DNA from: Saccharomonospora azurea NA-128
Lineage (GTDB): Bacteria > Actinomycetota > Actinomycetes > Mycobacteriales > Pseudonocardiaceae
DNA length: 64,000 nucleotides
Assembly: GCF_000231055.2 (NCBI RefSeq)
Contig: NZ_CM001466.1
Location: 3,953,950-4,017,949 of the forward strand
Direction of reading: 5' to 3'
This document shows, in pieces, positions 48,217 through 52,489 of this stretch. The position numbers were made by a program, and so were the translations under genes. The notes below the pieces were generated by a model. The model was not told the DNA's origin, made no database searches, and worked only from the letters and a program-made list of their open reading frames with translations. Within the stretch, counting starts at the first letter, position 1, and each line of letters starts with the position of its first letter.

Positions 48217-48891
48217 GTGGCTCGACAGGGATTCGCGCGGACGACTGTGTGGACGCGAGGCGTGACGGCGTTCGTCGCCGGGTGCGCGGTGCTGGCCGGC
48301 TGTGGCACGACGACGGGCACGCCGGTCGCAGCGACGCCGCCCGCGGAGCAACCCGCGGCTCCCTCGCCTCCCGCCTCGCCGCCGGGGTCGGCCGGGTCGG
48401 AGAGTCCGGCGGCCACGCTGCCGGTGCCGATCGAGTTCTCCCTGCCCGAGGGGTGGCAGTCCGTACCGCCCGCCGACGTGGGGGTCCCCGAGGCCGCGTT
48501 CGTGGCCCTGCACCCCGCCTCGCGCGGCGACGGGTCCGTGCCCACGATCGTCATCACCGGCGACGTGCGGGACAGCACGGTCGACCTCGAGGACATCGCT
48601 GCGGAATCGGTGAAGCAGTTGGAGACTCCGGGCACCGAGGTCCGGGTCGAGAGCAGCAAGGAGAGTGGCACCGCGGCGATCCCCGCGCTGACACAGGCCG
48701 TGCGCATCTCACCGGGTCCCCGCGGGCACGAGCTCCTGCAGCTGCAGACCTTCCTCGGCATGAGTGACACGACCGACCCGAGACGCCGAGCCGTGCTCGA
48801 ATTCGCCCTGACCACCCAGCCGGAACACTTCCAGGAACTGGCGGTCGACTTCCAGGAGTTCGTCTCCACGGTCCGTGTGGAGAGCGGCTAG
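48217..48891 (+). CDS. LpqN/LpqT-like lipoprotein (first copy of the cassette domain)
   Basis: A 224-residue lipoprotein. The signal peptide ends in the lipobox VLAGC, with Cys29 lipidated. A Pro/Ala/Ser linker (about 30-70) is followed by a compact domain (about 72-222): PVPIEFSLPEGWQSVPP ... FVALHPAS ... IVITGDVRDSTVDLEDIAAESV ... ALTQAVRI ... LQTFLGM ... FQEFVSTVRVE. This resembles the LpqN/LpqT (PsbP/Mog1-like) type. The same domain recurs in the products of 49490-50371 and 51471-51971. GTG 48217 is chosen as it gives a normal signal peptide; GTG 48247 would shorten it. Confidence 0.85.
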   Translation: MARQGFARTTVWTRGVTAFVAGCAVLAGCGTTTGTPVAATPPAEQPAAPSPPASPPGSAGSESPAATLPVPIEFSLPEGWQSVPPADVGVPEAAFVALHPASRGDGSVPTIVITGDVRDSTVDLEDIAAESVKQLETPGTEVRVESSKESGTAAIPALTQAVRISPGPRGHELLQLQTFLGMSDTTDPRRRAVLEFALTTQPEHFQELAVDFQEFVSTVRVESG

Positions 48892-48937
48892 TTCGGGGCG
48901 AGCTGTTCCAATCTCACCCGATCGGATGAAGCGAGTC

Positions 48938-48965
48938 GATCTTCCGAACGAGTGCTCGGAAGATC
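48938..48965 (+). promoter_or_regulatory. Perfect 10-bp inverted repeat before the T7SS-like operon
   Basis: GATCTTCCGA (48938-48947), 8-base loop, TCGGAAGATC (48956-48965). It lies 47 bases after the lipoprotein stop and 15 bases before the next start codon, so it could be a terminator, an attenuator or an operator. Confidence 0.6.
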
Positions 48966-48980
48966 AACATCCTGTGTGGT

Positions 48981-49490
48981 GTGACTGGTGGGTTTGGCTT
49001 CGGAGCAATCCCTGAGGAGCTGCGGCAGGCGGCGGGCAAGATCGACGACGTCATCGGGGGAGTCGTCCAGCTGCCCTGGCAAGGGCCGACAGGGGACTAT
49101 GGACATTCCGGGGTGCAGCGAGGCTGGGCGGACTTCGTCGAGAACGCCAAGCGCGAGGTGGAGTCCCTTCGCGACAAAGCCGTCGAACACGGCGAGTCGC
49201 TGCGGGCCGCGGCGGTCAAGTACCTCGAGAACGAGGCGGAGACCGACGCGACGCTGACCGGACTGGGTGGACTGATCGACGGTGGGGGTCTCGACCCGAG
49301 TGTGGTCCCGGGCGGCGGGATCACCGGCGGCATGGGGCTCGGACAGGTCCACAGTGGCCGACCGATCGGCGGGGGACTCGATCCGACCGTCATTCCGGGC
49401 GGCGGGATCACCGGAGGGATCGCCGACGCCCTCTCCGGGACCGAGAGCGGCGCCTCTGGTGAGACCGCGAGCCGGGGGATGCCGTCCTGA
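48981..49490 (+). CDS. EspC/WXG100-like T7SS-associated protein with duplicated C-terminal motif
   Basis: A 169-residue protein. Residues 1-90 are a helical hairpin with a W-x-G-like turn (LPWQGPTGDYGHSG) and SGVQRGWADFVENAKREV, resembling EspC/WXG100 partner proteins of type VII secretion. The C-terminal part contains a near-exact internal repeat: GGGLDPSVVPGGGITGG and GGGLDPTVIPGGGITGG, spaced about 28 residues apart. GTG 48981 has no clear ribosome binding site. Its stop overlaps the next start (TGATG). Confidence 0.75.
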   Translation: MTGGFGFGAIPEELRQAAGKIDDVIGGVVQLPWQGPTGDYGHSGVQRGWADFVENAKREVESLRDKAVEHGESLRAAAVKYLENEAETDATLTGLGGLIDGGGLDPSVVPGGGITGGMGLGQVHSGRPIGGGLDPTVIPGGGITGGIADALSGTESGASGETASRGMPS

Positions 49491-50371
49491 TGGCCGAACT
49501 GGGGCAGACAACCAATCCACGAGAGTTGATCCCGGGCGACCCGGAGGCAATCATCAACGACCTCCGCGAGCTCGTGAAGAACATCGAGGCCATCGGAGCG
49601 ACCGGCGACGGGCTCGGCAACGTCGATCCCGGGGAGTGGACCGGCGACGCCGCCACGGCCTTCCGCGACGTGTTCACCGCCGAACCACCGAAATGGTTCC
49701 AGGCGGTCGACACGGCCAACCAGGGTGGACAAACTCTCGCCGACTACGCCGACACCCTGGTCTGGGCCCAGGGCGAAGCGCAGCGGGCGATCGAGATGTA
49801 CACGGAGGCGCAGGCGGCGTCACGGGCTGCCGCGGCCCAGTACAACGAACAGGCCCAAGCCGCCTCCCAGGCGGGCATGGCAGCGACCATTCCCGTGCCG
49901 ATCGAATTCTCGTTACCCGAGGGGTGGCGGTCGGTGAATCCCGACTCGGTCGACGCGAGCGGGCTCGGTTTCGTGGCAGTGCACCCGGGGACGAGCGGCG
50001 CGTTCACGGCCAACATCACGATCTCGGGCGAACTGCGTGAGTCCCACGTGCCGCTGGCGGAGGTCGCGGACGAGGCGGTCGAGCGACTTCGTGCGGAGAA
50101 CCCGAGTGTCGAAGTGGGTCGGCGCGAGCAGACCGGTTCGGCGGAGAACCCTGCTCTCACCCAGGTCGTCCGGCTTCGGGTGGTGAGCTCGGGGAAACCG
50201 GTGCAGGTCTACCAGCTTCAGGTGTTGTTGGGGATGCAGGACCAGCGTGACAGGAGTCGGCGCGCGGTGCTGCACGTTGTGTTGAGTGCGTTGCCGGCGC
50301 AGTTCGCGCAGCTCATCGGCGACTTCGAGGAGTTCCTGGCGACCATCCGGCCGGAGGGTGCGAACTCGTGA
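49490..50371 (+). CDS. T7SS-signal domain fused to an LpqN-like domain (second copy)
   Basis: A 293-residue fusion. Residues about 1-125 form the putative T7SS secretion-signal module (IPGDPEAIINDLRELVKNIEAIG, DPGEWTGDAATAFRDVF, KWFQAVDTANQGGQTLADYADTLVWAQGEAQRAIEMY). This module normally heads polymorphic toxins. Here it is joined by an Ala/Gln-rich helix directly to an LpqN-like domain (about 135-290, PVPIEFSLPEGWRSVNP ... FVAVHPG ... VLLGMQDQ ... FEEFLATIRPE) in place of a toxin. Its end overlaps the next gene by four bases. Confidence 0.82.
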   Translation: MAELGQTTNPRELIPGDPEAIINDLRELVKNIEAIGATGDGLGNVDPGEWTGDAATAFRDVFTAEPPKWFQAVDTANQGGQTLADYADTLVWAQGEAQRAIEMYTEAQAASRAAAAQYNEQAQAASQAGMAATIPVPIEFSLPEGWRSVNPDSVDASGLGFVAVHPGTSGAFTANITISGELRESHVPLAEVADEAVERLRAENPSVEVGRREQTGSAENPALTQVVRLRVVSSGKPVQVYQLQVLLGMQDQRDRSRRAVLHVVLSALPAQFAQLIGDFEEFLATIRPEGANS

Positions 50372-51105
50372 GTACCGGTCTGATTGTCGCCATCGCAGTG
50401 GGCGGTGGGGTCCTGTTCCTCGGCGGGGTGGCGTGGCTGATCAGCAAGCTGACCCGCTCCTTCGCCGCTGAGAGCGGAGCCGCCACCGCTGAGGCCGGCG
50501 ACGTGCGGCAGCGGTTGGCGGAGGAGCTCCAACGGCGGGGGTGGAAGTTCGAGGAGAGGAACGACTCCTACGCCGAAATCCACAACGCGCAGCCCGAGTT
50601 CCAGTTGCGTAACGTGCTCGATCCGTTCACTTTGCCGCCCAAAGCGGTGGGCGCTCGGAACGTCATCACCGGAACCCACCGCTCCCGCCCCTTCATCGCG
50701 ACGGAATTCGACGTCCGGCATCAGGGACAGCACGTGCCCGTGACAGCTGTGTGGCTGAGTCTGCCCGCGATGCGGCCCGGGCTCACCGTGAGGCGCGTAC
50801 TGCGTGCCCAGAGCAAGATCCGTTCTCAGATCGGCCAGCGGGACATCCAGCTCGGTTTCCCTGAGTTCGACGAGAACTTCGAGATCACGACCGAGGACGA
50901 AGCTTTCGCCCGTGCCGTGCTCGTCCCCGACCTTGTGCGCTTCCTTGTCACGGACCCCCGTGCGTCGCGAGGATTCGCCATCTATGGCGACCAGCTCAAC
51001 GCGCACGACATCGTGGGAGATCACCGTGATCCGCAGAAGCTTGTACCCGCACTCGATTTGCGGTGCGACATTCTCGACCGAATCCCAACCTTCGTCTGGT
51101 CTTGA
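50368..51105 (+). CDS. Single-pass membrane protein of unknown function
   Basis: A 245-residue protein with an N-terminal membrane helix (about 4-27, GLIVAIAVGGGVLFLGGVAWLI) and a soluble domain (about 50-245) that starts RQRLAEELQRRGWKFEERNDSYAEI and contains TGTHRSRPFIATEFDVRHQGQHVPVTAVWLSLP. No family is recognised with certainty. GTG 50368 overlaps the upstream stop (GTGA), so it is coupled to the T7SS-LpqN fusion and may serve as its membrane partner. Confidence 0.7.
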   Translation: MSTGLIVAIAVGGGVLFLGGVAWLISKLTRSFAAESGAATAEAGDVRQRLAEELQRRGWKFEERNDSYAEIHNAQPEFQLRNVLDPFTLPPKAVGARNVITGTHRSRPFIATEFDVRHQGQHVPVTAVWLSLPAMRPGLTVRRVLRAQSKIRSQIGQRDIQLGFPEFDENFEITTEDEAFARAVLVPDLVRFLVTDPRASRGFAIYGDQLNAHDIVGDHRDPQKLVPALDLRCDILDRIPTFVWS

Positions 51106-51132
51106 TTCTGAAACTGATGAGGAGAAGTTATC

Positions 51133-51474
51133 GTGAAATTGCGGTCACTGCGTGCGGTCGCTGTCCTGGCTGTTGGCGCTGCCTTTGCGCTGTCGGGATG
51201 TAGCTTCAAGTCGACCGTCTCCAAGGAAGAACTCGAAAAGCAGTCATTTGATGTGCTGACCAAGATGGCGGGCGAAGAGCCGGCCGAAGTCGAGTGTCCT
51301 GGACCGATCGACGGTGAAGTGGGCGCGAAGACCCGCTGTGTGCTCACAGCGAAGGACGGTGGTCGCATCGGTTACACGATCGAGATCACCTCCTATGAGG
51401 ACAATCGCGGCAAGATGGTGGTTCAAGTCGACGAGACGCCGATGCCGCCCGCGCAGGGGAATGCCGGGACATGA
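51133..51474 (+). CDS. DUF4333-type lipoprotein
   Basis: A 113-residue lipoprotein with the lipobox ALSGC and Cys23. The mature part has the DUF4333 pattern: VECPGPIDGEVGAKTRCVLTAKDGGRIGYTIEI, with a conserved cysteine pair. GTG 51133 is set by GGAG at 51121-51124. The last four bases overlap the next start (ATGA). The local base composition is less GC-rich than that of the flanking genes. Confidence 0.8.
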   Translation: MKLRSLRAVAVLAVGAAFALSGCSFKSTVSKEELEKQSFDVLTKMAGEEPAEVECPGPIDGEVGAKTRCVLTAKDGGRIGYTIEITSYEDNRGKMVVQVDETPMPPAQGNAGT

Positions 51475-51971
51475 GTACGACGGTGACGGCTTTGCCGGTG
51501 CCGATTCGGTGCACTCTGCCGGACGGCTGGCTCTCGGTGCCGCCGAAGGAGGTCAACGCCGACAACGCCGCCTTCGTGGCGGTGCATCCGGGGTTGAGCA
51601 AGGGGTTCACTCCGAGCATCACCATGACCGGGCACGTTCGGGCCCACGACGCGCCGTTGCAGCAGGTGGCGGAGGAGTCGCTGGCGGAGCTGCGGGCGGG
51701 CGCGACCGAGGTGCGGGTGGGGGAGCGCAGCGAGGTGGGTACCGCCGACAACCCCGGCTTCGCGCAGGCGGTTCGGCTCGTCCTGCCCTACGGCGGGAAG
51801 CCGCTGCACCTCGTGCAGCGACAGGCGTTCTTCTCGATGCGACATCCACGGGATCCCGGCAGCACGGCGGTTCTGCAAGTCGTTCTCAGCGCGTTGCCGG
51901 ACCAGTTCGTGCGACTGCTCGACGAGTTTCACGAATTCCTGACGACGATCCGACCGGAAGTGGAGCGATGA
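51471..51971 (+). CDS. LpqN-like domain, stand-alone cytosolic form (third copy)
   Basis: A 166-residue protein made of the cassette domain alone, without signal peptide or lipobox: LPVPIRCTLPDGWLSVPPKEV ... FVAVHPGLSKGFTPSITMTGHV ... LQQVAEESLAEL ... QVVLSALPDQFVRLLDEFHEFLTTIRPE. It is clearly homologous with the C-terminal halves of the products of 48217-48891 and 49490-50371. ATG 51471 overlaps the upstream stop; its own stop overlaps the YbaB start. Confidence 0.82.
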   Translation: MSTTVTALPVPIRCTLPDGWLSVPPKEVNADNAAFVAVHPGLSKGFTPSITMTGHVRAHDAPLQQVAEESLAELRAGATEVRVGERSEVGTADNPGFAQAVRLVLPYGGKPLHLVQRQAFFSMRHPRDPGSTAVLQVVLSALPDQFVRLLDEFHEFLTTIRPEVER

Positions 51972-52450
51972 GTGGTTACGCGGCGCAACTGATGCGTCGT
52001 ATCGAAGCGTTGGACACGGCGGCGGCCGACAACCGGCGACGCGCCGAGGCCTACCAGCGGACGGAGGAGGAGCTGAAGGACGTCAGCGCGAGCGTGACGT
52101 CGCCCGACGGGGTGGTGACCGTCGTGGCCGGGCCCGGGGGCGTGATCTCGTCCGTCACGTTCTCCGAGAGCGTGCACGACCTCAGCCCGGCGTCCTTGTC
52201 GACGACGGTGCAGCAGACCATCGCGGCCGCCGTCGCCGCGGTGGCGCGCCGGCAGGCGGACGTCGTCCGCCGGGGCCTCGGCAGCTCGGAACTGCTCGAC
52301 CGGGTCACCGAGTCGGACGAGACGCTGTTCGGGGACCGGCGCCCGACGGCATCGGCGGAGGACCTCGCGCCTGCGACGAGCGGGGCACGTAACGCCGACG
52401 ACGAAGTGTTCTTCGAGGAGTTCGACCTCTTCGAATCATCGGACCGGTAG
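51968..52450 (+). CDS. YbaB/EbfC-like protein
   Basis: A 160-residue protein. The N-terminal helix (about 1-45) and central strands (SVTSPDGVVTVVAGPGGVISSVTF) followed by a long helix (LSTTVQQTIAAAVAAVARRQADVV) match the YbaB/EbfC fold, a DNA-binding dimer. The C-terminal 45 residues are acidic and unlike the classical 100-residue YbaB. Such genes often accompany T7SS substrates in Pseudonocardiaceae. ATG 51968 overlaps the upstream stop in ATGA. Confidence 0.82.
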   Translation: MSGYAAQLMRRIEALDTAAADNRRRAEAYQRTEEELKDVSASVTSPDGVVTVVAGPGGVISSVTFSESVHDLSPASLSTTVQQTIAAAVAAVARRQADVVRRGLGSSELLDRVTESDETLFGDRRPTASAEDLAPATSGARNADDEVFFEEFDLFESSDR

Positions 52451-52458
52451 CCGTCTCG

Positions 52459-52489
52459 GCCGGGACGGGCGCCTGGTGCGCGTCCCGGC
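52459..52489 (+). terminator. Terminator of the T7SS-like operon
   Basis: 9-bp stem GCCGGGACG (52459-52467) and CGTCCCGGC (52481-52489), nine bases after the YbaB stop. Confidence 0.6.

Follow-up and report, generated by a model that had tools for sequence, protein, structure and literature searches.

The soil bacterium Saccharomonospora azurea NA-128 harbors a cassette of seven plus-strand open reading frames (ORFs) in which one protein domain occurs three times, in one case fused to the export signal of a type VII secretion system (T7SS, also named ESX). The cassette is located at 48217-52450 of the window, i.e., the whole stretch of 64,000 nucleotides analyzed here (contig NZ_CM001466.1, positions 3,953,950 to 4,017,949 of the forward strand). 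The seven ORFs, including those of the EspC-like, membrane, DUF4333 and YbaB-like proteins, were found where a first-pass annotation of this DNA had placed them. The observation made in that annotation is confirmed, while its interpretation, i.e., a single system in which a lipoprotein, a secreted fusion and a cytosolic protein act in three cell compartments, is partly supported. The fusion was found to be the remnant of a deletion, and the domain is best read as the partner of a T7SS substrate whose cargo region is absent from this cassette.

The cassette and its repeated domain

The first gene (48217..48891) encodes a lipoprotein with an LAGC lipobox signal, a Pro-rich linker and the domain at approximately residues 67-222. 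It is followed by the gene of an EspC-like T7SS partner protein (48981..49490), which has a YLENE sequence conforming to the YxxxD/E motif and a Gly-rich tail, and by the fusion gene (49490..50371), where a T7SS_signal module (residues 1-131; PF21725, E 3.9e-35, above the cut-off) is joined to the domain (residues 132-293). Downstream are found two recurrent members of the cassette, a membrane protein with an N-terminal hydrophobic stretch (50368..51105; similarity to DUF3137 below threshold) and a DUF4333 lipoprotein (51133..51474; Pfam scan and presence in other loci). The gene of the latter overlaps by four bases (51471-51474) with that of the 166-residue, signal-less copy of the domain (51471..51971), which was recognized from sequence, tree and structure prediction. 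The last gene (51968..52450) encodes a YbaB-like protein that is conserved in the cassette and comparable to EspH, EspD and EspL of ESX-1; its YbaB/EbfC Pfam match is above the cut-off (36.2 bits vs 25.5). The fusion is the sole T7SS_signal protein of the genome above the Pfam cut-off, two more matches falling below, and EccB, the one Ecc protein of the ESX machinery that was searched for, is encoded approximately 0.59 Mb away (C1:3408657, E 1.2e-134). Of the ORFs flanking the cassette, one is presumably malate synthase-like and one YcsF/LamB-like.

The three copies of the domain are related, as had been claimed, with pairwise identities of 43-49%. The structure of the 166-residue copy was predicted from a 72-row alignment (A3; 69 listed relatives and the three window copies), and the resulting model (predicted local distance difference test, pLDDT, 90.9; predicted template-modeling score, pTM, 0.88) shows the Mog1/PsbP fold as a full-length structural match. 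Matching structures are 3lyd (an uncharacterized Jonesia protein), PsbP, MTC28, LpqN, Mog1 and DcrB, further SciW and EagT6 in complex with effector segments and, at lower rank, the immunity proteins TplEi and Tsi3. The fold is shared with LpqN, but membership of the LpqN family (PF10738) is unsupported by sequence: none of the three window copies matches at E≤1, and 13 of the 72 rows match weakly. A search of the window genome for LpqN gave 0 matches, its control also matching nowhere. With DcrB/DUF1795 there is no match above the cut-off for the window copies; the copy from Saccharomonospora sp. NB11 (see below) reaches E 0.15 (12.7 bits, cut-off 27.2), and similarity at E≤1 is seen in 9/72 rows, the best at 0.014. 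When the PDB was searched with the domain profile (hmmsearch), 3lyd was the sole near full-length match (E 0.17).

The fusion gene and its counterpart in Saccharomonospora sp. NB11

When 100 related genomes were searched with the fused protein, its signal half and its domain half matched separate genes. The closest counterpart is that of Saccharomonospora sp. NB11 (genome G003, locus L031), where two genes with 5 bp between them encode a 473-residue effector, i.e., a T7SS-type substrate whose C-terminal beta domain is rich in Gly/Ala, and a 168-residue domain protein. Identity to these proteins amounts to 98% for the signal half of the fusion and to 99% for its domain half. The DNA of the window and of NB11 is colinear apart from 1052 bp that are additional in NB11 at window position 49875/49876 (the matches of the two flanks overlap by 2 bp at this junction, 49875..49876), and this segment of approximately 1.05 kb is nearly all effector; it covers the beta domain of the latter and the initial codons of the partner gene. 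The reading frames of the two NB11 genes differ by two and the length of the loss does likewise, so that the join is in frame.

Signal and domain were found in one ORF at 0 of 84 other annotated loci (64 from the genome scan and 20 from further relatives, nine of which repeat a genome). As judged from these comparisons of sequence, the fusion is the scar of a deletion, in which the signal module lost its cargo and did not gain the domain as cargo. It is not an ancestral third form of the domain, because the halves are separate in the closest relative and joined at none of the 84 loci, and a conserved architecture was rejected on the same observations. The join may be an assembly error in the window genome, against which stand a single contig and an estimated completeness of 99.99%. 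Among the matches listed, those from the window genome comprise three copies of the domain and none of the effector beta domain. The lipoprotein gene of NB11 is short by approximately 384 bp and leaves a 96-residue remnant (L031 3816-4106), so that the window species and NB11 differ in which part of the cassette they have lost.

The fusion lies within a tract of near-identity to NB11 (49458..52275, borders approximate), in which identity is 96-100% in 28 of 29 steps of approximately 100 bp and 90% in the remaining one, as compared to 75-99% in the steps upstream and 58-94% in those downstream. Likewise, BLASTN identity is 97.9% for 49875-52471 and 80.3-90.6% for four other long pieces. Codon changes relative to NB11 number 0-8 in each of the T7SS part, the domain part, the membrane protein, the DUF4333 protein and the signal-less copy, but 56/169 in the EspC-like gene, outside the tract, and 22/160 in the YbaB gene, which extends across the right border. 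A high-identity tract with less similar flanks suggests that the cassette was recently exchanged between species. In the tree discussed below, the domain copies from a Rhodococcus rhodnii record (JOAA01000001.1, L064) and from Kibdelosporangium aridum (L068) are nearly identical to each other, which reflects either a recent transfer or a mislabeled record.

Linkage of the domain to the effector C-terminus

The gene set is conserved together across the 84 loci, which are found in Saccharomonospora, Prauserella, Amycolatopsis, Kutzneria, Saccharothrix, Kibdelosporangium, Actinophytocola, Streptomyces, one Rhodococcus and others. The common arrangement is an EspC-like gene, an effector and the domain, often followed by YbaB, the membrane protein and DUF4333. 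For the tree, the neighbor counts, the motif counts and the second lipobox count below, the nine repeated-genome loci were removed. In the 60 effector loci that then remain, the domain is located just downstream in 60/60, an EspC-like gene is present in 55, YbaB in 41 and the membrane protein in 31 (same strand, within set distances).

Among the matches listed for 249 genomes of the family, 103 carry the domain and 92 the C-terminal type of the effector; 90 have both, 13 the domain only, 2 the C-terminus only and 144 neither (Fisher p 1e-50, kinship uncorrected). The domain directly follows at least 116 of 127 beta-domain genes, i.e., there are at most 11 misses, and adjacency is 88/89 when restricted to higher-scoring rows. 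T7SS_signal proteins differ in this respect: among the matches listed, the domain is encoded downstream of 21/23 that have the beta domain vs 0/27 with other C-termini. These 50 places comprise family f1 only, with the window and the broken place G028:C42 (two partial rows) left out; two of the 27 places without the beta domain, those in G050 and G054, do not appear in the listed matches, and there the search with the fusion protein shows no domain match. At seven Streptomyces loci (L094, L095, L102-L105, L107) the N-terminus of the effector is not recognized by the T7SS_signal profile (of six scanned, three have PPE matches below threshold and three nothing), yet these effectors share the Gly/Ala-rich C-terminus of the other cassettes and the domain follows. 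The partial correlations of cassette distances with those of the domain, which are descriptive, are 0.41/0.38 for the C-terminus, -0.07/0.05 for the signal and 0.13/0.03 for the EspC-like protein; that of YbaB is 0.29, but that of the membrane protein is also 0.42. From the adjacency counts, the Streptomyces loci and the distance correlations it becomes apparent, at the sequence level, that the domain is tied to the C-terminus of the effector rather than to its T7SS signal.

The WxG motif is found in 61/62 effectors and YxxxD/E in 63/63 EspC-like proteins (15% when shuffled). Mean column identity of the effector is 45% over 50 rows (sets A2, A4 and A5 comprise 12 of the 27 rows of A1, 50 of the 51 listed effectors and 34 of the 51, respectively). 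The model of the NB11 effector contains a helical hairpin similar to PPE41 (probability 0.99-1.0, although E is 0.04) and, in the C-terminal part, seven strands of approximately 22 residues each; the block of residues 251-430 has a pLDDT of 80-90, but how the parts are arranged overall is uncertain (pTM 0.43). Because the turns are short, neighboring strands in this model would pair antiparallel, i.e., as long beta-hairpins. Within the last four strands of the alignment, hydrophobic residues that are either small or large (Ala/Val, or Val/Phe/Leu in the last strand) alternate with Gly/Ser/Glu, a pattern not seen in the first three. The predicted beta domain may have a membrane-inserting role. 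Assignment of the C-terminus to a known toxin family was dropped as neither Pfam nor Foldseek gave support: in four effectors scanned, T7SS_signal is the only Pfam match above the cut-off, and Foldseek returned nothing below E 0.013, with weak, low-probability porin-like rows. At two loci (L080, L085) the signal and the beta domain of the effector are found in different ORFs, which reflects a frameshift or an error of a draft assembly or metagenome-assembled genome (MAG).

The forms of the domain differ with its position. A lipobox is present in 0/79 copies directly after an effector vs 17/25 elsewhere (0/72 and 12/19 without repeated genomes), and lipobox copies occur in Saccharomonospora, Prauserella and one Actinomycetes MAG. 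A single 298-residue lipoprotein of Prauserella cavernicola (L052 7196-8092) combines DUF4333 with the Mog1/PsbP-fold domain. Copies without an adjacent effector include both lipoproteins and signal-less forms. In the domain tree, which is rooted by midpoint only, the window domain from the fusion clusters among copies linked to effectors (100/98 with NB11 and G001). The signal-less window copy is instead found with the signal-less copies of other Saccharomonospora and with the DUF4333-fused protein of P. cavernicola (97/86). Seven lipoproteins are placed beside this signal-less group (joint branch 87/95, below the star threshold), while three more are located on a long branch in another part of the tree. 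Both extra copies of the window may derive from one older duplicate, and the signal-less copy may once have been an envelope protein or may have become one in Prauserella. Two further arrangements were observed. Locus L134 (4780-7679) holds one whole and one split lipoprotein-type copy, a membrane protein and DUF4333, with no effector in the fetched stretch and effectors elsewhere in the genome. In three genomes of the window's genus (L125-L127) a signal-less copy occurs, and no gene of the cassette was detected in the stretch fetched around it; the stretches fetched around the signal-less copies L125 and L132 gave no effector profile match.

Roles of the domain and known systems

The explanation that we consider best, at slightly better than even confidence, is that the domain originated as the partner of a T7SS substrate, was duplicated and, in the window genome, became part of a deletion-made fusion. 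The ancestral unit would be a T7SS (ESX) cassette of an EspC-like partner, an effector and a Mog1/PsbP-fold protein, often accompanied by YbaB, the membrane protein and DUF4333, where the effector is composed of a WxG-type T7SS_signal and a Gly/Ala-rich C-terminus predicted to form long antiparallel beta-hairpins. Judging by their YxxxD/E and WxG motifs, the EspC-like protein and the effector would constitute the export pair, and the Mog1/PsbP-fold protein, being linked to the beta domain at locus after locus, would be its dedicated binding partner. Most likely it would bind the beta domain in the cytosol, keep it soluble and off the producer's membrane and, on the model of the Eag chaperones, let go of the effector at export. 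The best reading of the domain is that of a cytosolic chaperone or antidote of the substrate, and one protein may serve as both chaperone and immunity protein. The additional copies are best read as duplicates that arose in Saccharomonospora and Prauserella, some of them as lipoproteins that probably guard the outer face of the membrane. In the window genome, as the comparison with NB11 indicates, the 1052-bp loss would have joined the T7SS signal to the partner in frame, presumably after the exchange of the tract. A simple analogy with the Eag chaperones is countered by the gene order, with the partner downstream, and by the copies without effector. A more far-reaching version, which we regard as rather doubtful, is that actinobacterial T7SSs are served by Mog1/PsbP chaperones, in parallel to the Eag proteins of type VI secretion, that mask the amphipathic hairpins of a secreted, membrane-inserting (pore-like) substrate up to its export, that in some lineages the domain was relocated to the outside as lipoproteins that disarm incoming substrate, and that the window genome has just lost the weapon.

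The strongest rival of the chaperone reading, possible but in our view the less probable of the two, is that the domain is the immunity protein of a toxic effector, the cytosolic copy neutralizing the cell's own effector and the lipoproteins incoming ones, while effector-less copies are orphan immunity genes; the window genome would have lost the toxin end, with only immunity left, partly fused to the signal. Such a role is consistent with the order of effector and partner genes, with the occurrence of the domain without a detected effector in 13/103 genomes, including Saccharomonospora iraqiensis with two or three lipoprotein copies, with the orphan lipoprotein copy in L134, and with the recent exchange between species. 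Moreover, the partner tracks a single type of cargo rather than the signal common to these proteins (21/23 vs 0/27), three other T7SS_signal proteins that were inspected have quite different C-termini, the immunity proteins Tsi3 and TplEi share the fold, and in excerpts of a published survey (PMC3482391) PsbP/MOG1 is listed in a table of domains fused to an immunity family. However, one conserved C-terminal family is found at all 127 places (by construction of the search), no swap of cargo behind the same partner was seen, and none of the 27 other T7SS_signal proteins has the partner. The predicted beta-hairpin domain also seems directed at membranes, and an immunity protein in the cytosol would give no cover against an attack of this kind from outside, and in most sampled loci the signal-less form occurs alone.

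Alternatively, the partner could be an LpqN-like envelope protein and the T7SS substrate a structural one, with a function in the envelope rather than in conflict. The LpqN-like fold, the weak sequence similarity and the conservation of the effector would fit this view, but we consider it improbable given that LpqN is annotated as a lipoprotein, whereas none of the 79 effector-adjacent copies has a lipobox, and that the domain is strictly coupled to one secreted domain. Less probable still is the first-pass interpretation of three working forms in three compartments. All three ORFs are open and intact, and the differences between the fused gene and NB11 are mostly synonymous (synonymous to nonsynonymous, 5 to 1 in the T7SS part and 4 to 1 in the domain part), but these are too few to show any selection since the join, and the fusion is absent from 84/84 other loci, its halves being separate genes in the closest relative. 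Lipoprotein and signal-less forms do occur in related species; the third form, the fusion, is instead the ancestral effector neighbor stuck to a signal, alongside two paralogues.

The conserved effector/partner pair is the interesting object here, and it looks new among T7SS substrate cassettes: a literature search, outside the coverage of which most subscription journals lie, gave no title or abstract describing the cassette or a Mog1/PsbP-fold partner for type VII secretion. The pair would provide a tractable model of how a T7SS handles beta-rich cargo, and the window fusion illustrates that an apparently designed domain architecture can be the scar of one deletion.

The published systems are compared here as described in excerpts of the papers cited. 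The ESX-1 loci espACD and espEFH, with EspA or EspE as substrate, EspC or EspF as partner and the YbaB-like EspD or EspH, likewise combine a substrate, an EspC-like YxxxD/E partner and a YbaB-like gene; EspH is a binding partner of EspE and is required for EspE/EspF, EspA/EspC are stabilized by EspD, and a similar action is proposed for EspL (PMC6107294, PMC6319747). Judged without a direct protein comparison, the present cassette adds the Mog1/PsbP-fold partner, the membrane protein and the DUF4333 lipoprotein, and its substrate, unlike those of the ESX-1 loci, has a Gly/Ala-rich C-terminus with predicted beta-hairpins. Effector-adjacent copies also differ from LpqN, MTC28 and PsbP-like proteins in that they have no lipobox and are located behind a T7SS substrate gene. 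The T7SS immunity families EsaG and TipC form tandem, recombining copies, while TsaI recombines little (PMC9484751); with these families the cassette shares several paralogues, effector-less copies and exchange between strains, but it has one conserved cargo type and copies with and without lipoprotein signals. Membrane-active cargo that is kept harmless before export by partners is known for type VI secretion, where Eag chaperones (EagT6 and SciW, DUF1795/DcrB family) hold effector helices and are hypothesized by the authors to prevent insertion into the producer's own membrane (PMC7773334). The cassette has a type VII-type substrate, and sequence similarity to these proteins is weak; the Eag gene is upstream of the effector in two characterized pairs (PMC7773334), while the cassette partner is downstream in at least 116/127, and the Eag ligand consists of N-terminal helices, in Gly/Ala-rich membrane segments of the effector, while the presumed ligand region of the cassette partner is C-terminal and predicted to be beta. 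PsbP/MOG1 proteins beside toxins have been tied to type VI secretion in a 2012 survey (PMC3482391) and a 2025 paper (PMC12419801), a rule that would be widened by the present cassettes, as in Pseudonocardiaceae and Streptomyces the domain is strictly coupled to a substrate of the T7SS type.

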